NCBI GenBank assembly: GCA_937877765.1
Contig: CALGBN010000537.1
Coordinates: forward strand, 1-10,101
DNA from: Candidatus Bathyarchaeota archaeon
GTDB lineage: Archaea > Thermoproteota > Bathyarchaeia > TCS64
Direction of reading: 5' to 3'
DNA: 10,101 nucleotides
The position numbers and the translations under genes are program-made. Below the pieces are notes generated by a model. That model saw only the letters and a program-made list of their open reading frames with translations, did no database searches and was not told the origin of the DNA. Positions 1-10,101 of this stretch are shown one piece after another. Within the stretch, counting starts at the first letter, position 1; every line of letters begins with the position of its first letter.

Positions 1-2286
1 GTTGATGGCGACTACGCCATATTCTGGGTTAAAGTTCCCAGCATACCAGCATATCACATTAAGGTAGAGTCTGGCTCATGGACTGTAGATGGGAACACCT
101 ACCACCACAGAACAAAAATAACAATAACGGAAAACTCTGGTCAAAACCTAACAGACTATCAAGTGCAAGTCGTAATCAACACCAAATGGCTAGTCGATAA
201 CGGATACGCAACGTCGAATGGGAACGAAGTTAGATTTACGGATTCTGAAGGCAACCTACTGAGCTTCTGGAGAGAGACAGACTTCAACACAGAAAAAACA
301 ATATACTGGGTTAAAATCCCGAACCTCTCAGCAAACTCAACAAAAACCATATACATCTACTACGATGAAGAACTAACAGCCGTGACAGATGCAAGCAATG
401 GAGAAGCCACATTTCTGTTTTTTGATGATTTTGATTTGGGTTATTTAGATACTGACAAATGGGTTGAATACGACAGCGGCGGTACATACGAATTCGTGGA
501 TTCATGTATTTACTTAAAACCTGTACTTAATGCTAATAATGCAGTCGCACTGAGAAGCCTGTTGAAACTCACTAACAACATAGAAATACAGGCTAAGATA
601 ATAGCTGAGACAGACACATATTATGACTTAGGGCTAGTTAAAACCGAAAACATAATCACAAACACATGGCATGGACCTGAAGCAGACAACATAGGTTACT
701 GGCTCTGTGCACAACATCGAACAGATACTGAAAATGAATATCTGTTAAGAAGGAGAGACGTGGGAAGCACAACTAAAATCATGGATTCAGGATACAAAAG
801 TCCAATTAAATACGAGTTAAAGTATGTATTGAGATATTTGGATGATGGAGGCATCAAAGGTTTAGGAATACTTACTGATGAAACTGAGTGGTTCAACATC
901 TATGGAACTGACACGACATACCTTAGCGATGACAAATATGTCGTTATATGGCAGGGTGCATATAGTGGTGGATGGGGTGGCTACAGTAAGTGGGATTGGG
1001 TTTTCGTTCGCAAATATGTTGACCCTGAGCCCTCCGTTGAGGTTGAGACTGAGAAAGCAACAATCTACATCTATTATGGTAAGAGCGATGCGACGACGAC
1101 AAGCGACCCAGATGCTACCTTTGAGTTCTACGAGGACTTCACAAGTGACCCAAATACAAATGGTAAGTGGGAGGTGTATAGATCTGTTAATGATGTTGCC
1201 AATGAGTTTGTTTATGACTCGGCTAATAGGAGGGTTTACTTGACTAAGGCGGTTGACAATAAAGGTTGCTTCGCATTCCTCAAGAAAAACGGATCATTAC
1301 TCGACTGTCCAGAGCCAGGATTTGCAATCAAAACTAGAGGAGGTGGTGGTGGAGGAGATGGAGCTGATGGTTGGGCTATAGGTTTCTATAAAGATGCAAC
1401 ACCATATCAGACCTATGGTAGATGCTCACGAGGAGGAAGTCTAGGATTAGCCGCCTATGATGGATCTGCAAACCATCAATCCAAAGGATATGCAGTAGAG
1501 TTTGACAACTACCAGAATCCCTTCGACCCAACAGCAAACCACAATGCTCTTGTCGATACTCTTACAACCATTAACCCTGAGACTCACCATGTAAGAAAGG
1601 ATACCAACATAGCGAATGAAGATAATGCCACTCATACCATTGAAATATACGTTTACAATGGCGTCAAGCTAGTAGTTGATGGCTCACAGCACTTCTCCAT
1701 TTCGTTAACTTTAGATAAGACATACAAGAAGCTTGGTTTTGGAGCAGGTACTGGTGGGTTGAACAATAACCATTGGATTCAGGACTACGTGATAATTAGG
1801 AAATACATCGATCCAGAGCCTAGTCACGGTGCTTGGGGTAGCGAGGAGTCCATTACAGCTCTCTCGCTTTTCGATTCGATCAGCCTCTCAGATGTTGTTT
1901 CGAAAAGCGTGACTAAGCCACTGTCGGACGCCGTATCCCTATCTGAGGTGGTTTCGAAGGTCATTGATAAGCTCCTCTTCGATTCGCTGTCTACCTCCGA
2001 TTCAATGACTAAAGGGGTCTATAAGTTACTGTCGGACTCGATATCGCTGTCGGACTCGATGACTAGGGGTCTCGCAAAGTTCCTGTCCCTGTTCGACACC
2101 ATATCCCTGTACGACTACATGGGATGGGTTTACCCGTACCTAGATCCCGAGAAGCCCCTTGACAGGCTGATAGCCGTGCTAGATACATTAGATAGGATGG
2201 GCTACAGGTTGGAGCAACTGTTAGACGACCCGTACATCGTCTACTTGATCAGATACATGGCTAGGAAGGGGAGGGGCGAGATATAA
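1..2286 (+). CDS. Large modular surface/fibre protein with DUF2341 and L-type lectin-like domains (5' end missing)
   Basis: The reading frame is open from base 1, so the protein is cut at its N-terminus and the first internal ATG (163) is not a real start. In order: the end of one DUF2341 module (IFWVKVPSIPA); a fuller DUF2341 module at about 100-420 (KITITENSG, LTDYQV, IYWVKIPNL, TIYIYYDEE); a beta-sandwich (FFDDFDLGYLDTDKW) to about 1020; the end of another DUF2341 module (IYIYYGKSDATTTSDPDATF); then a legume/L-type lectin-like domain at about 1120-1815. That domain has a Gly-rich loop followed by DGADGWAIGFY and an AVEFDNYQNPFDPTANH metal-site motif at 1492-1542. The tail holds 18-residue repeats and a helical C-terminus. 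These families are carbohydrate-binding or adhesive surface modules. With fibre-like genes downstream I infer a virion adhesin or receptor-binding protein; a host S-layer-associated adhesin is the alternative. The stop overlaps the next start (TAATG). Confidence 0.85.
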   Translation, partial: VDGDYAIFWVKVPSIPAYHIKVESGSWTVDGNTYHHRTKITITENSGQNLTDYQVQVVINTKWLVDNGYATSNGNEVRFTDSEGNLLSFWRETDFNTEKTIYWVKIPNLSANSTKTIYIYYDEELTAVTDASNGEATFLFFDDFDLGYLDTDKWVEYDSGGTYEFVDSCIYLKPVLNANNAVALRSLLKLTNNIEIQAKIIAETDTYYDLGLVKTENIITNTWHGPEADNIGYWLCAQHRTDTENEYLLRRRDVGSTTKIMDSGYKSPIKYELKYVLRYLDDGGIKGLGILTDETEWFNIYGTDTTYLSDDKYVVIWQGAYSGGWGGYSKWDWVFVRKYVDPEPSVEVETEKATIYIYYGKSDATTTSDPDATFEFYEDFTSDPNTNGKWEVYRSVNDVANEFVYDSANRRVYLTKAVDNKGCFAFLKKNGSLLDCPEPGFAIKTRGGGGGGDGADGWAIGFYKDATPYQTYGRCSRGGSLGLAAYDGSANHQSKGYAVEFDNYQNPFDPTANHNALVDTLTTINPETHHVRKDTNIANEDNATHTIEIYVYNGVKLVVDGSQHFSISLTLDKTYKKLGFGAGTGGLNNNHWIQDYVIIRKYIDPEPSHGAWGSEESITALSLFDSISLSDVVSKSVTKPLSDAVSLSEVVSKVIDKLLFDSLSTSDSMTKGVYKLLSDSISLSDSMTRGLAKFLSLFDTISLYDYMGWVYPYLDPEKPLDRLIAVLDTLDRMGYRLEQLLDDPYIVYLIRYMARKGRGEI
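1867..2121 (+). repeat. 18-residue LSDSISLSD protein repeats
   Basis: Four tandem 54-nt units begin at 1867, 1921, 1975 and 2029, followed after a two-residue insert by a fifth partial unit at 2089. Each starts L-(F/S)-D-(S/A/T)-(I/V/L)-S-(L/T)-(S/Y)-(D/E) and ends in a K/R-containing stretch. The DNA is also partly repeated (CTGTCGGACTC occurs at both 2029 and 2047). Such Ser/Asp/Leu repeats are common stalk segments in phage and archaeal surface proteins. A stalk role here is inference. Confidence 0.75.
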
Positions 2287-3455
2287 TGCTAGACGTGATC
2301 AAGTGGCTCAAGAAGCTGAAGGAAGCGATAACCCAAATGTCAGACCTGATATACGCACACAAGGGCAGGCACAAGCCAGGAGGAGCAGACGCCCTCTTCC
2401 CAGCCGACTTCAACATAGAGCCTGCAAGCGACAACACCTACGACCTCGGCACGTCAAGCTACAGATGGCGGAACCTTGAGCTTGCAGGCTACGGCAACCT
2501 CGGAAGCCTAAGAATAGGCGGAACCGAAGTTATAACTTCCGGAAGGGTATTACAGAACGTAACTTCAATTGCTCAATCCTTACTTCCAGATACAGATAAT
2601 ACTAGAGATTTGGGGAGTGACAGCTATGAATGGAGACATGCATACATAAGAGGTATTTTATATGGAAATAGTTACTATACTTATGACCAAGCTGGTAATA
2701 GAGTTCAGTTTCTTATAAGAGCGGTGGCAGCACCAAACACACACTTCCATATTTTCCCAAATTACACTAAGCCAGCAGACGCTACGGACATCACAGTTTG
2801 GTTCGGATATAACTCAGAGATACTAAAATATGAATTTAAGAGCAAGTGGACTGGTTCAAACGTGTCTTTACTATCGTTAAGGGGTGATGAACTAGTAAAT
2901 TATTCTAGGAGTTTCTTGCCTTTCTCTGATAATGCCTATGACATAGGCTCTTCAAGCTACGCTTGGCGGCGCATCTTCGGATATGTACACCGCTTCGTTC
3001 CGACTTCCCCTCCAGCTAGCCCGTTTGAGGGCGACGTTATCTACGACACAGCAGACAAAGCCCTCAAAGTCTTCAACGGCACGGATTGGTTGCCCGTAGG
3101 CAGGGTAGTCGTCCCATTAGTCTTCGACGACACCCAAAAGTCCGTCTCCGGCACAACCGAAACCGAGGTCAAACACTTCAGGTTCTCCAAGACCTCAAGC
3201 TACACCAACTGGAAGAAGCTGACGGTTGTAGCTTCCCTATGGGTTGACGGCGGGACTGGCACGCTCAAAATCTACATTAACGATGAAACATCACCAAGGC
3301 TATCCCTATCAACTACCAACACTAGCGAGTCAGTTGTCTCAGGTGAGATAGACATAAGCGATTTAGGTGAGGGAGTACATACTTTACGTGTTAAGCTGGT
3401 GAACGATGGAAGCTACAACACCTACACGGAGCTGTTGGAGGTATACGCACAATGA
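2286..3455 (+). CDS. Tail-fibre-like protein with three DNxYDLGSSSYxW repeats
   Basis: 389 residues, no cysteine at all. The N-terminal 25 residues are helical, followed by HKGRHKPGGADAL (about 25-37), a motif frequent in phage tail-fibre proteins. Three copies of a short beta repeat follow at residues 45-68 (SDNTYDLGTSSYRWRNLELAG), 101-123 (TDNTRDLGSDSYEWRHAYIRG) and 212-233 (SDNAYDIGSSSYAWRRIFG). Then come a PxSPFEGDVIYDTADKALKVFNGTDW tail-fibre-type segment (about 241-269) and a C-terminal beta-sandwich-like domain of about 90 residues (VASLWVDGGTGTLKIYIND). The start ATG overlaps the previous stop by one base, with a GGGGAGGGG ribosome site about 10 nt upstream. I infer a virion fibre. 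The middle (about 2540-2960) is AT-richer than the ends, suggesting domain exchange. The stop overlaps the next start (ATGA). Confidence 0.85.
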   Translation: MLDVIKWLKKLKEAITQMSDLIYAHKGRHKPGGADALFPADFNIEPASDNTYDLGTSSYRWRNLELAGYGNLGSLRIGGTEVITSGRVLQNVTSIAQSLLPDTDNTRDLGSDSYEWRHAYIRGILYGNSYYTYDQAGNRVQFLIRAVAAPNTHFHIFPNYTKPADATDITVWFGYNSEILKYEFKSKWTGSNVSLLSLRGDELVNYSRSFLPFSDNAYDIGSSSYAWRRIFGYVHRFVPTSPPASPFEGDVIYDTADKALKVFNGTDWLPVGRVVVPLVFDDTQKSVSGTTETEVKHFRFSKTSSYTNWKKLTVVASLWVDGGTGTLKIYINDETSPRLSLSTTNTSESVVSGEIDISDLGEGVHTLRVKLVNDGSYNTYTELLEVYAQ

Positions 3456-3892
3456 GCATAGACGTTAGGACTTGCTATGAATGTCAGGTATGCTACTCCT
3501 GCCAGTCATGCGACGCATGTCAAAAGTGCAACACCTCATGCTACTACTGCTACGGCTGTCAGAGCTGCAACACATGTCAGGTCAGGTACAGCTGTGCAAC
3601 CTGCTACTCCTGCCAAAAATGTTATGGGACGTGCCAAAACTGCAACACCTGCCAGAAGTGCAACACTTCATGCTACTCGTGCAATTCATGTCAATCCTGT
3701 TACTCATGTCAGATATGTGAGGCAACCTGCTATGGCTCATGCATGAATTGTCAATCATGTGTATCCTGCCAGAACTGCAATACATGTCAATCATGTGATA
3801 TTGGATGTTACCTTTGCTTCACATGTGAGGTGTGCGCTCAATGTCAAGTCTGCGATTCATGTCAATTATGCTACGACTATGATGGGTGGTGA
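3452..3892 (+). CDS. Giant Cys-x-x repeat protein 1 (42 Cys in 146 residues)
   Basis: Apart from residues 1-7 (MSIDVRT) and the aromatic tail YDYDGW, the protein is a continuous C-x-x repeat, from Cys8 to Cys140. Between cysteines the first residue is mostly Q, Y, N, V, E or D and the second S, T, N, V, A or K. The 3-residue spacing is broken by single-residue insertions giving CxxxC at 26-30, 57-61, 70-74, 89-93, 93-97 and 115-119; Arg45 replaces one expected Cys. Blocks starting at 8, 30, 74, 97 and 119 are 22, 44, 23 and 22 apart. No signal peptide, leader or peptidase site is visible. GGAGGT at 3437-3442 is the ribosome site, and the start overlaps the fibre stop by 4 nt, implying coupled translation. 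The co-directional radical SAM gene suggests post-translational modification of the cysteines (inference). Disulfide ladders or metal-cluster binding are alternatives. I do not recognise a named family. Confidence 0.9.
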   Translation: MSIDVRTCYECQVCYSCQSCDACQKCNTSCYYCYGCQSCNTCQVRYSCATCYSCQKCYGTCQNCNTCQKCNTSCYSCNSCQSCYSCQICEATCYGSCMNCQSCVSCQNCNTCQSCDIGCYLCFTCEVCAQCQVCDSCQLCYDYDGW

Positions 3893-4362
3893 AGTAAATG
3901 TCGTTGAACGTTAGGAGGAGGGCCGTCAAGACCCCTGACCTGAGGGACGTCGAATGTGAGTCATGCGAGTACTGCTACACATGCGACCAATGCTACGCCT
4001 GCTACGGATCATGTGAATCATGCCAATCATGTGTAGGATGCCAATCATGTTATAGCTGTCAAAGGTGCAATGCCTCATGTTACCGATGCTACTCATGCCA
4101 AGCATGCAATACATGCCAATCATGTTATTCATGTTATGGCTCGTGTGAAACATGCCAGTCATGCGTATCCTGCGAAAATTGCAACACCTGCCAGTTATGC
4201 AATGTGGCGTGTTTCTATTGTCAAACTTGCCAGTCCTGCAATGCTTGTCAGGTATGTGCTACCTGTCAAGGTTATTGTGATGTATGTGCTATATGTTATT
4301 CCTGTGAGAGTTGCGTCTCATGTGAGACTTGCAACACATGCATGACTTGCTATCAATCATGC
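3473..4362 (+). repeat. Phased 22/44-residue cysteine repeat array across two genes
   Basis: At DNA level the two genes carry 66-bp blocks; in protein 2 they start at 4012, 4078, 4144, 4210 and 4276. Exact copies of TGCCAATCATGT occur at 4021, 4039 and 4114, and TGTCAATCATGT at 3749 and 3785. Such short direct repeats would allow block gain or loss by slippage or recombination while keeping frame, because units are multiples of 3 bp. Confidence 0.85.
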
Positions 4363-4380
4363 ATTGTAGGCTACTACTGA
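3898..4380 (+). CDS. Giant Cys-x-x repeat protein 2 (44 Cys in 160 residues)
   Basis: Paralogue of the preceding gene, five bases downstream, with a GGTGGTGA ribosome site (3885-3892) that includes the previous stop. A basic 19-residue N-terminus (MSLNVRRRAVKTPDLRDVE) precedes Cys20; its MS-L-N-VR start resembles MSIDVR of protein 1. From Cys20 to Cys155 every third residue is Cys except at regular one-residue insertions. Blocks of exactly seven Cys begin at residues 39, 61, 83 and 105, with a longer nine-Cys block at 127, so the period is 22 residues. Alternate blocks match better (YGSCE at 36 and 80; NASCY at 58 and NVACF at 102), giving a 44-residue super-repeat. It ends in IVGYY. Likely role is a repetitive rod or tip protein and substrate of the downstream radical SAM enzyme; both points are inference. 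The short basic N-terminus could be an enzyme recognition segment. Confidence 0.9.
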   Translation: MSLNVRRRAVKTPDLRDVECESCEYCYTCDQCYACYGSCESCQSCVGCQSCYSCQRCNASCYRCYSCQACNTCQSCYSCYGSCETCQSCVSCENCNTCQLCNVACFYCQTCQSCNACQVCATCQGYCDVCAICYSCESCVSCETCNTCMTCYQSCIVGYY

Positions 4381-4390
4381 ACCCATACTG

Positions 4391-4398
4391 TTAATAAG
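4391..4398 (+). promoter_or_regulatory. Possible TATA box for the third Cys gene and radical SAM gene
   Basis: TTAATAAG lies in the only gap of the module (4381-4432), followed by purine-rich DNA. Its distance to the GTG at 4433 leaves a short leader containing GGGGGTG (4421-4427), a ribosome site. It could restart transcription for protein 3 and the enzyme separately from the fibre genes. Weak evidence from spacing and composition only. Confidence 0.3.
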
Positions 4399-4432
4399 GG
4401 AGGAGTTACGACAGTAAATTGGGGGTGTTGAG

Positions 4433-4765
4433 GTGTCCTGTATCAGCTGTTATGAATGCCAGAACTGCTATGAGTGTCAGACATGCATAAAGTGCGAGGG
4501 GTCATGCGAGTCCTGCCAAGTCTGCGTGGCATGTGAAACAGGTGTCGCACAACCTACATCACGACAGCCTCCACCACAGCCACGATTCCAGCCTCAACCT
4601 AGATTTCAGCCTATACCACCGAACCAGCTGATGGCTAGGATTGAGGAGCTGAGCTCGAAGGTTGATAAGCTTTTGGACAGCATATCGATGCTGATCAGAG
4701 TCCTACAGCCAAGGGTCGAGAGGCGATGCGAGCTTGACAGGGGCAGGCTTGAGGCTACCAGATAG
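4433..4765 (+). CDS. Cys-x-x head, Pro/Gln linker and coiled-coil protein
   Basis: 110 residues, starting at GTG with GGGGGTG five bases upstream. Residues 3-21 hold seven Cys at 3-residue spacing, then CEGSC, then four more (25, 28, 31, 34): one complete 22-residue unit and half of the next, the same grammar as proteins 1 and 2. A Pro/Gln/Arg/Phe linker follows (about 41-64, containing QPRFQPQPRFQP), then a well-formed heptad coiled coil (IEELSSK, VDKLLDS, ISMLIRV) at about 69-92, and a charged tail with one further Cys. The coiled coil suggests oligomerisation, perhaps trimeric as in fibres. The Cys head may dock onto or template the large Cys proteins, or the protein may be an adaptor that brings the radical SAM enzyme to its substrates; these are inferences. 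Its last 32 nt overlap the enzyme gene, pointing to joint expression. Confidence 0.8.
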   Translation: MSCISCYECQNCYECQTCIKCEGSCESCQVCVACETGVAQPTSRQPPPQPRFQPQPRFQPIPPNQLMARIEELSSKVDKLLDSISMLIRVLQPRVERRCELDRGRLEATR

Positions 4766-5915
4766 GTTCGGCAACGTCACGGCTTGGGCTACTTGCAGAT
4801 GCAATTTGGCTTGTGACTACTGCTACGTCTACAAGCTCCATCCAAACCAGCCGAGAGCAGACATGGACGAGGAGACGATAAGAGCCCTCCTAGAGTTCGC
4901 CAAGAACCATATGATCAAGCCAGCCGAAATATGGTGGTTCGGCGGAGAGCCAACAGTTGTCTGGAAAGACGTAATAGTTAGGGCAGTCGAAATAGCTGAA
5001 GAAATGGGAATGAAGATCGGGTGGACACCTCAACACGACGTGAAGTTCGGGTTCACGACCAACGCCACACTATTAGACGAAGCTAAGGTCGAGCTCATGA
5101 AGAGGTATCAGTTCGGCGTTTTGATATCGATTGACGGCACCGAGGAGAAACACGACAAACACAGGAAGTACCATGATGGAAGGGGCACGTTCAAAGAGGT
5201 CTGGAGGGCGATACAGCTAGTCCGCAAGCACCTAAACCCGAACCCGCAGTTGAGGTGGACTGTTTCACCAGACAACTTGGATGGATTGGCGGATGACATC
5301 AAATGGTTTGTGGAGCAAGGCTTGACTGCCCTGGCTTGCGACCCAGTCTATGAATGCAAGTGGTACGAGGAGGACTACGAGAAGTTCAGAAGAGAGATGA
5401 TCAAGCTTAGGGGCTACATGATACAGTGGGCTAGGAGAGGCGTCCTACCCTTCATATTATCGGTCAGGAAGGCTTCCGAGGTCTGGCTGGCGATGAACAG
5501 GGGTTGGAGCTGGACGGATAGATGCGGTTTAGCTCAAGGGGGAATAGGGCTAGACGTCAACGGCGACATATATCCCTGCCACCGCTTCGTAGACACCCAC
5601 GATCCAACGTTGGTCTTGGGCAACGTCAAGACGGGAATAGACCAAGAGAAGAGGATCAGGTTAAACGTGTATTGGCGTGAGTGCAGACCTTATTGTGAAG
5701 ACCCCTCCATGTGCTTTGAATGCCTATACCGACCTGCATGCAATGGAGGATGCTTGGCTATCAACTGGGACTTGTTCGGCGACATGCATGTGGTTCCCGA
5801 GTCCTACTGTAGGATAGCAAACATAGCGGTCGAGGTCTTCACGCCCTTCCACAACTTGATGGTGTGGGAGGGCAATGAGGCTTACAGGAGGACTTACCTA
5901 AACGTCAGGCTATAA
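4734..5915 (+). CDS. Radical SAM/SPASM peptide- or protein-modifying enzyme
   Basis: 393 residues with a TTG start; later starts would crowd the cluster motif. The radical SAM core has CNLACDYC (Cys23, 27, 30; CxxxCxxC) for the SAM-binding 4Fe-4S cluster and the GGEP motif at 70-73, in WWFGGEP. The C-terminal SPASM domain matches the family pattern exactly: Cys264, then GDIYPC with Cys282, then CxxCxxxxxCxxxC (327, 330, 336, 340) and Cys359. This predicts two auxiliary 4Fe-4S clusters; Cys317 and Cys321 are extra. The YPCHRFV...LGN segment resembles the anSME/SCIFF-maturase/QhpD type, enzymes that oxidise Cys or Ser to formylglycine or form thioether cross-links in peptides and proteins. No sulfatase or dehydrogenase is present; the three Cys-x-x genes directly upstream are the obvious substrates (inference). 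The exact chemistry cannot be read from sequence. Confidence 0.93.
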   Translation: MTGAGLRLPDRFGNVTAWATCRCNLACDYCYVYKLHPNQPRADMDEETIRALLEFAKNHMIKPAEIWWFGGEPTVVWKDVIVRAVEIAEEMGMKIGWTPQHDVKFGFTTNATLLDEAKVELMKRYQFGVLISIDGTEEKHDKHRKYHDGRGTFKEVWRAIQLVRKHLNPNPQLRWTVSPDNLDGLADDIKWFVEQGLTALACDPVYECKWYEEDYEKFRREMIKLRGYMIQWARRGVLPFILSVRKASEVWLAMNRGWSWTDRCGLAQGGIGLDVNGDIYPCHRFVDTHDPTLVLGNVKTGIDQEKRIRLNVYWRECRPYCEDPSMCFECLYRPACNGGCLAINWDLFGDMHVVPESYCRIANIAVEVFTPFHNLMVWEGNEAYRRTYLNVRL

Positions 5916-9753: not shown

Positions 9754-9879
9754 ATGAGGGTCGCCGTGATAGGTGGTGGTCCTGCTGGATCTACTGCGGC
9801 CATGTTCTTGAGCTTCAGAGGCGTTGATGTAGACCTATACGAGGCTCTCCCAGCGCCTAGGGCAATATGTGCTGGCGGT
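9754..9879 (+). pseudogene. N-terminal fragment of FAD-dependent oxidoreductase (geranylgeranyl-reductase-like), broken by assembly
   Basis: ATG preceded by GGTGACAAG. Residues 1-33 are a complete Rossmann FAD-binding start: RVAVIGGGPAGSTAAMFL (GxGxxG) and, at the end of the second strand, Glu in VDLYEALP. This is the opening of the geranylgeranyl reductase/FAD oxidoreductase superfamily, which in archaea saturates membrane lipid isoprenoid chains. Only about 42 residues are authentic. After APRAICAGG the frame runs into unrelated DNA (see the adjacent fragment), so the break is probably technical rather than a true pseudogene. If genuine up to that point, it may be a host gene flanking an integrated element. 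Confidence 0.6.
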
Positions 9880-10051
9880 CCAGATCCGTCTGGATGCACA
9901 CTTTCCCCCCAAATGTCTCGCCCAGTCGTTCGATGCCCATGATGGTCATCTGAGGATGGAGCACATCTACGCCGATCTCGATGAAGTCGGGAATGATGGC
10001 CCAGATCATCCCGTCGCTGTGGAAATGCACATAAGCGCCGCCGGCATGCAC
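9860..10051 (-). other. Chimeric fragment of a uroporphyrinogen-decarboxylase-like gene
   Basis: The minus strand reads VHAGGAYVHFHSDGMIWA, then PDFIEIGVDVLHPQMTIMG, then GGKVCIQTDLDRQHILP without a stop across this stretch. HSDG, PDxxEIGVDxLxP and TDxDRQ are recognisable late motifs of the URO-D/corrinoid methyltransferase family. It is about 64 residues, with neither the start nor the end of a gene, and its base composition is more GC-rich than the neighbours. It is joined over 9860-9879 to the FAD gene in the opposite direction and to adapter on the other side. Probably from another organism in the sample. Confidence 0.75.
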
Positions 10052-10101
10052 CTGTCTCTTATACACATCTGACGCTGCCGACGAATTAGACGGTGTAGAT
10101 C
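10052..10101 (+). other. Nextera sequencing adapter with i5 index (contamination)
   Basis: CTGTCTCTTATACACATCT (10052-10070) is the Tn5 mosaic end. GACGCTGCCGACGA (10071-10084) is the Nextera read adapter, ATTAGACG (10085-10092) the reverse complement of an i5 index that I recall as S510, and GTGTAGATC (10093-10101) the start of the P5 arm. Its translations (LSLIHI on plus, MYKRQ on minus) are familiar database artefacts. Not biological. Confidence 0.97.

Follow-up and report, generated by a model that had tools for sequence, protein, structure and literature searches.

Cys-x-x array proteins coupled to a radical SAM/SPASM enzyme in a probably virus-encoded tail gene module of a Bathyarchaeal contig

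Described systems and the Bathyarchaeal locus

SPASM enzymes are diverse. QhpD makes several Cys-to-Asp/Glu thioethers inside a protein subunit, and the CXXX-repeat peptide system (TIGR04115, TIGR04119), which to our knowledge has not been described as a virion part, combines a radical SAM enzyme with a Cys-periodic target. A comparable arrangement was analysed here in a 10,101-nucleotide contig of Candidatus Bathyarchaeota archaeon (CALGBN010000537.1, assembly GCA_937877765.1; hereafter the window), which encodes three Cys-x-x array proteins (C1, C2 and C3) followed by a radical SAM/SPASM enzyme. Like the CXXX-repeat system, the locus joins a radical SAM enzyme to a Cys-periodic target, and with QhpD it would share a protein target for a thioether enzyme. 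The coupling of arrays and enzyme is real and wider than first inferred, and we report for the first time that each locus has two long arrays of matching length.

SCIFF/CteB (TIGR03974; PDB 5wgg and 5why) has in common with this locus the fold, the SPASM layout and a multi-Cys substrate adjacent to the enzyme, but CteB has an N-terminal domain that the enzyme described here lacks. Two SCIFF-like peptides were observed beside related enzymes (L100 5459-5602 and L101 586-732) on gut contigs labelled bacteriophage and UNVERIFIED, which may be bacterial DNA. They have 47-48 aa and 7 Cys, whereas the paired arrays of the present family span 43-296 residues beside tail genes; their motif CQTSCQSACKTSC resembles the arrays with Cys at every fourth residue. 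The ranthipeptide maturase PapB (NF047865) is reported to link Cys to Asp in test peptides, with 0-6 residues between them, and to link Cys to either Asp or Glu in its natural target (PMC9413430).

Long CxxC arrays are also encoded by Campylobacter phages (phrog_15341), which carry radical SAM genes as well. A published account of these phages mentions 11 and 12 radical SAM proteins and proposes a possible metabolic benefit (PMC2853527). The CxxC proteins (41-76 Cys; L005 9301-10738, L006 9866-10426, L007 9731-10453) share an N-terminal LIDGYY...NNNKWD segment, and in phage CP21 two of them, of 172 and 284 aa, follow one another. In the three records covered, the nearest radical SAM gene lies 0.8-8.1 kb off, and the proteins were rejected as homologs of the arrays described here because their N-terminal domain and the residues between their cysteines differ. 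In titles and abstract openings of the open-access literature searched (subscription papers and preprints being outside this scope), the pairing of arrays and enzyme was not described.

Coupling of the Cys arrays and the enzyme

Starting from the arrays, three Cys-array queries against IMG/VR retrieved 20 loci distributed over 17 contigs, 15 of which were testable, as L050 and L066 end before the site of the next gene. A radical SAM gene was found within 1 kb of the array in all 15 contigs, and in 14 of them it was the next gene downstream on the same strand, with a gap of 9-99 bp in the 13 contigs measured and an overlap of the two genes in L016. The latter locus was first reached via the enzyme and formed part of one Cys query, so it is not an independent case. 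In the fifteenth contig, L060, the Cys protein is irregular and the radical SAM gene, a different one, lies 0.7 kb upstream; this contig is counted in the 15/15 only. Some loci are near-copies: the genes of the stand-alone array (type B, see below) are identical in L052/L053 and in L064/L065, and differ at 2 codons in L056/L057.

From the enzyme side, 19 loci were obtained in named genomes. An array was present in all ten of the best loci (L030-L039, E <= 3e-28), L030 being a near-copy of the window, and a regular array in none of the nine weaker ones, among which L041 has an irregular Cys-rich protein on the opposite strand and L043 spans just 3.2 kb. The enzyme search in 398 genomes of the phylum gave 22 places at E <= 1e-30, some of them in the same genomes as the named-genome loci (identical enzymes). 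Arrays accompanied the enzyme at 8/8 places above 200 bits, the window included, and at 0/14 places below 195 bits within a flank of ~1.5 kb, less at contig ends. When the same 398 genomes were searched for Cys-x-x arrays, five matched, including that of the window, and four of the matches adjoin the enzyme; the fifth (G126), a low-complexity LSC repeat, was discarded as artefactual. The enzyme profile also reached 17 loci in viral contigs, 15 of them with a clear array, one (L013) with an irregular Cys stretch and one (L025) with none. The proposal of the initial annotation that Cys-x-x proteins are coupled to a SPASM enzyme was thereby borne out from both sides. Cys-x-x genes lacking the enzyme, which would have spoken against it, were not widespread in the families reached, the Campylobacter phages being the known exception.

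The array pattern varies between loci. Cys residues recur at every fourth position in L014, L015 and L029 and at every second position in L017-L024, L026-L028 and L002, and mixed spacing of three and four residues was found in L031-L036 and L038, which are Bathyarchaeal loci except for L038, recorded as Clostridiales. When the seven period labels were mapped on a 53-row enzyme tree, 11 changes sufficed, compared with 31.4 on average after shuffling and never so few in 200 shuffles, indicating that array pattern and enzyme go together. The tree was made by a quick method that leaves 23 of 47 inner branches open; some rows are near-copies, row L083 represents 108 aa read in the wrong frame, and L025 is a partial enzyme. 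Apart from L073 on a long branch, the period-3 and mixed groups (26 enzymes) cluster with a support of 93 (not starred). The Cys-array proteins that adjoin the enzyme in L033, L036 and L038 have 469-594 aa and mixed spacing, and perhaps represent a cellular version; by eye, phage genes were not recognised near L038.

A short Cys-x-x unit accompanies the enzyme in many of these loci. In the window, L039 and L072 it stands alone and has a tail judged helix-like by eye, and it is fused to the N-terminus of the enzyme in 12 loci (L011, L012, L037, L049, L052, L054, L055, L056, L059, L063, L064 and L073), while none was seen in L016. Our guess is that this C3-type unit docks the enzyme on the arrays.

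The enzyme of the window (4749..5915, plus strand; start TTG 4749 or TTG 4734) contains CxxxCxxC, GGEP and C-x12-G-x4-C...CxxCx5CxxxC...C, so that the motifs listed at the outset, an intact CxxxCxxC, GGEP and a seven-Cys SPASM pattern, were all located. Pfam detected Radical_SAM (E 1.3e-20), with SPASM below its cut-off (14.7 of 21.5 bits). The seven SPASM cysteines are invariant or nearly so in a family alignment of 36 rows. The complete pattern was present in 23 of 35 period-labelled enzymes; the 12 misses comprise all 6 period-2 rows, both period-4 rows and 4 period-3 rows (L016, L039, L059 and L073), the row of L039 being a cut-off sequence. In two enzymes an intein-like block was observed inside or directly at CxxxCxxC, by the active-site cysteines (L039 4181-5875 and L063 10950-13274).

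The AlphaFold model of P0001, which is 98% identical to the window enzyme, has a pLDDT of 95.4, and among solved structures it comes closest to CteB (fold E 2.4e-21, profile E 1.6e-60) and anSME (E 1.2e-20). By homology, the fold and the cluster residues can be assigned, and the CxxxCxxC motif, the seven-Cys pattern and the fold together place the enzyme among the radical SAM/SPASM proteins. The family profile aligns to CteB only from CteB residue 96 and, counted from TTG 4749, 17 residues precede CxxxCxxC; a CteB-type N-terminal peptide-binding domain ahead of the radical SAM core was absent from the window enzyme in this profile alignment.

The best NCBIfam model for the window enzyme was PapB with 231.6 bits, below its cut-off of 340. 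A total of 71 models matched at E 0.1 and none of the best 25 exceeded its own cut-off, the SCIFF maturase TIGR03974 scoring 127.4 bits against 425 and TIGR04115 106.2 bits against 350. Among array-associated SPASM enzymes, taken from loci with periods 2, 3, 4 and mixed 3/4, PapB was the top model for 8/8 with a match (133-281 bits), yet each remained under the curated 340 bits; in the same eight, TIGR04115 reached 98-148 bits, and QhpD (TIGR03906) reached 66-209 bits against a cut-off of 453. A ninth enzyme scanned, the first radical SAM protein of Erwinia phage phiEaH2, gave no NCBIfam model at E 1e-15, and for the second one PapB was the best model with 133 bits.

It is very likely that the enzyme acts on the arrays, and the product is likely a thioether. 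The near-equal structural match to anSME, together with the diversity of SPASM enzymes, would also be compatible with another chemistry on the same arrays, such as formation of formylglycine by Cys oxidation (anSME-like), of alpha-carbon thioethers (sactipeptide-like) or epimerisation. We regard this as improbable, given that PapB, a non-alpha thioether enzyme, heads the models of all eight matched enzymes, albeit below the cut-off in each, and that dozens of formylglycines would give no reason for the strict spacing.

Paired arrays and their lengths

Within the window, C1 (3452..3892, plus strand; 146 aa) is a stand-alone Cys-x-x array with 42 Cys and an array span of 133 residues (type B). 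C2 (3898..4380, plus strand; 160 aa, 44 Cys, array span 136) is an array with an N-terminal motif (type A), whereas C3 (4433..4765, plus strand; 110 aa, 12 Cys) consists of a short Cys-x-x head with 11 Cys, a Pro/Gln-rich linker and, as judged by eye, a helix-like tail. Gaps of exactly three residues account for 34 of 41 Cys-Cys gaps in C1, 37 of 43 in C2 and 9 of 11 in C3. Compared with 5000 residue shuffles, Cys pairs at i, i+3 were in clear excess, with 34 in C1 (shuffled mean 11.6, maximum 22), 37 in C2 (mean 11.7, maximum 22) and 9 in the C3 head at 4433-4540 (mean 2.9, maximum 7). The breaks of C2 are themselves regular, six gaps of 4 being set 22, 22, 22, 22 and 28 residues apart. The original description of three Cys-rich proteins with 3-residue spacing therefore holds for the counts and goes beyond the shuffles, but in C3 the repeat is confined to the first third.

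The arrays had also been called leaderless, which is partly wrong. C2 begins with a leader-like stretch, MSLNVRRRAVKTPDLRDVEC (3898..3957, plus strand), whose last residue is the first Cys and which is kept in relatives, the type-A motifs being KTPDLRDVEC in the window, RTKSIRDVEC in L016, RTTQLRDIEC in L037 and KTNNIRDVEC in L072. In each of 24 arrays, consecutive triplets of a strand alternate in Gln/Glu more than expected; Gln/Glu at +1 in both of two successive triplets was found in 3.9% of 794 pairs, against 13.6% expected. A homology search with C2 in 5.8 billion proteins returned a single weak match, and profile and locus searches were more productive.

Period-3 loci carry two long arrays, one of each type. 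Type A either starts with the N-terminal motif or forms the C-terminus of a larger protein, and type B is free-standing. In 13 of the 17 IMG/VR contigs type A ends a large protein of 819-1704 aa, the array stopping 4-8 residues before the C-terminus. This size and the position in tail modules, wherever the context was read, make it very hard to see the arrays as a secreted or defensive system carried by viruses without being part of the virion, akin to a ribosomally synthesised and post-translationally modified peptide, even if the closest known enzymes mature small peptides and SCIFF-like peptides occur beside related enzymes in L100 and L101.

The spans of the two arrays agree within 10% in 18 pairs (17 of period 3 plus phiEaH2), from 43/46 up to 296/293 residues, with a Pearson coefficient of 0.998, and none of 100000 partner shuffles was as close. 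A stricter first version, in which Cys residues up to 8 residues apart were joined, comprised 16 pairs with r = 0.978 and left L037 and L064 poorly matched; the limit of 12 used later was set after L037 had been seen, and the later version dropped the near-copy L057 and added L066, L073 and phiEaH2.

At non-Cys positions, the two arrays of one locus are on average 36% identical (range 15-59%; local alignment, 16 loci), and type-A and type-B arrays across loci 34% (sd 6%). Recent duplication was thus considered an unlikely cause of the matched lengths in general, the identity within pairs being about that between loci. Because lengths match though the arrays of one locus are no more alike than arrays across loci, paired strands of one rod are suggested. 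When partners were aligned by Cys position alone, their identity was 6-25% (12 loci), and Gln/Glu after Cys faces another residue in the partner in 9/12 loci. In a test of the break pattern, the own partner ranked first in 9/16 cases, second or third in 6/16 and eighth in 1/16 (L037).

Pairs of Cys-rich chains of equal length would be natural partners for interchain disulfides, and a rod held by A-B disulfides beside an enzyme with an unrelated substrate was considered. This is most improbable in view of the enzyme gene adjoining the array in 14/15 testable contigs and of the Cys-x-x units fused to the enzyme in 12 loci. The matched lengths and registers would also suit four-Cys sites made by two chains. 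CxxC is a classical metal-binding motif, and in-register CxxC pairs that bind Zn or Fe-S could give a metal-stitched rod or an electron-conducting wire, the enzyme modifying something else or only some of the cysteines. The array profile gave 13 weak matches in the PDB, mostly to zinc-finger, LIM-type or other zinc-binding proteins, although Cys content alone would lead one to expect such matches. The same type of enzyme occurs with Cys at every second or fourth residue, for which no one metal site would be common, and the enzyme is the constant partner, so that we give this metal ladder only a small chance.

Tail context, the proposed rod and the layout of the window

On the plus strand of the window, the genes follow the order DUF2341 protein, tail-fibre-like protein, C1, C2, C3 and enzyme. 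The tail-fibre-like protein (2286..3455, plus strand) matches phrog_7121, tail fibre, with E 1.3e-9 over a stretch of 32 residues only, and its C-terminal domain (FDDTQKSVSGTTETE...) recurs right before the Cys arrays in L059 (60% identity) and L037 (37%). PHROG profiles covered the genes of part of the array loci. In L012 a tape-measure protein lies two genes ahead of the fused array, in L037 the array is preceded by a tape measure and followed by a fibre-like gene, and baseplate wedge genes are near the array in L016. The placement behind tail-fibre genes noted in the initial annotation is consistent with these loci, where arrays are fused to or lie beside tail genes as expected for Caudoviricetes tails. 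The large array-bearing protein is probably a tail protein, judging by its position.

We favour, with some reserve, the reading that the cassette yields a two-strand virion rod at the tail, welded by the enzyme through thioethers. The window would then be a probably virus-encoded protein-maturation cassette within a tail gene module. Type A (C2) and type B (C1), being of matched length, would lie alongside each other in a rod located at the tail tip or fibre, and we consider a single virion rod made of A and B likely. A CteB/PapB-like enzyme, guided by the short Cys-x-x unit (C3 or its enzyme-fused form), would work along the repeats and join Cys sulfurs to carbons of neighbouring side chains, the most likely acceptors being, in each repeat, Gln/Glu/Asp/Asn at +1 or Ser/Thr at +2. 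Such a rod would be stiff, redox-proof and resistant to proteases. More tentatively, and with rather less than even confidence, this may be an undescribed building principle shared by several lineages of archaeal and bacterial viruses, in which a cognate radical SAM enzyme welds in-register, length-matched, Cys-periodic strands into a covalent carbon-sulfur rod at the tail tip and the length of one strand dictates that of its partner, as a two-stranded ruler. The paired strands of such a ruler would have Cys at every third or fourth residue, and the arrays with Cys at every second residue are single. If the proposed rod is real, radical SAM thioether chemistry known from small peptides would build virion parts with tens of cross-links per chain, which may help to explain radical SAM genes in some phages, and it would provide a novel kind of covalent protein fibre whose length is set genetically, for which the cultured Erwinia phages offer a testable cousin.

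Several observations weigh against the proposed rod or its generality. Nearly all loci come from metagenome assemblies by record name and several are near-copies; nine of the 15 clear arrays reached in viral contigs via the enzyme profile belong to close kin (L018-L024, L026 and L027). AlphaFold gave no confident fold for C2 (pLDDT 44). Capsid or terminase genes were not recognised among the window proteins scanned, and phage genes were not seen by eye, with no profile search made, near the Bathyarchaeal mixed-3/4 loci L033 and L036. The large array-bearing proteins of L011 and L012 match phrog_8917, a family without an assigned function. The two arrays of L072, and likewise those of L073, resemble each other more closely than any same-type pair does, and C1 and C2 of the window are 62% identical over 87 residues, Cys included, so duplication is possible in these three loci; the complementary Gln/Glu phase fails in the window, L011 and L055. 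Finally, in all three Campylobacter phage records covered, out of four, the CxxC proteins are not adjacent to a radical SAM gene; the distance to it is 6.7 kb in CP21, 8.1 kb in CC_R7 and, with two genes between, 0.8 kb in WX1.

Six Erwinia jumbo phages (phiEaH2, Asesino, Caitlin, ChrisDB, pEa_SNUABM_9 and Huxley), from among 23 matching records, each encode two array proteins of 127-132 aa side by side; their Cys residues are mostly 3 and 4 residues apart and the array spans are 75-77. Two radical SAM genes lie downstream of these arrays and carry that annotation in five of the six phages, whereas SNUABM_9 has them as hypothetical. In phiEaH2 (L099) the two arrays (3072-3455 and 3467-3865) are accompanied by a third short Cys unit (3910-4116), and the annotated genes over both arrays use other frames. 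The presence of this cousin system in Erwinia phages means that heat resistance is not the general reason for the arrays.

The window is one contig (C537) of a genome bin of 2.48 Mb in 573 contigs, with a completeness of 78%, and the contig QMWT01000017.1 (L030; Thermoprotei archaeon bin, B82_Guay16) is 99.6% identical to it over 9.8 kb. The first gene of the window (1..2286, plus strand) encodes the C-terminal part of a large DUF2341/lectin-like protein (DUF2341, E 1.2e-33), the copy of which in L030 (2014-5538) has 1174 aa; by position it is probably a tail fibre or adhesin. The gene preceding it in L030 matches a tail-fibre family with E 1e-14. The gene starts overlap or nearly touch, as had been stated, with an ATGA overlap between the tail gene and C1, a gap of 5 bp between C1 and C2, a gap of 52 bp between C2 and C3, and both candidate start codons of the enzyme within the C3 gene. 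At the other end of the window, bases 9803-10101 have no match in L030, which stops there, and the contig end at 10052-10101 resembles a sequencing adapter (CTGTCTCTTATACACATCT...), which we take to be Nextera, so the last bases are probably an assembly artefact.

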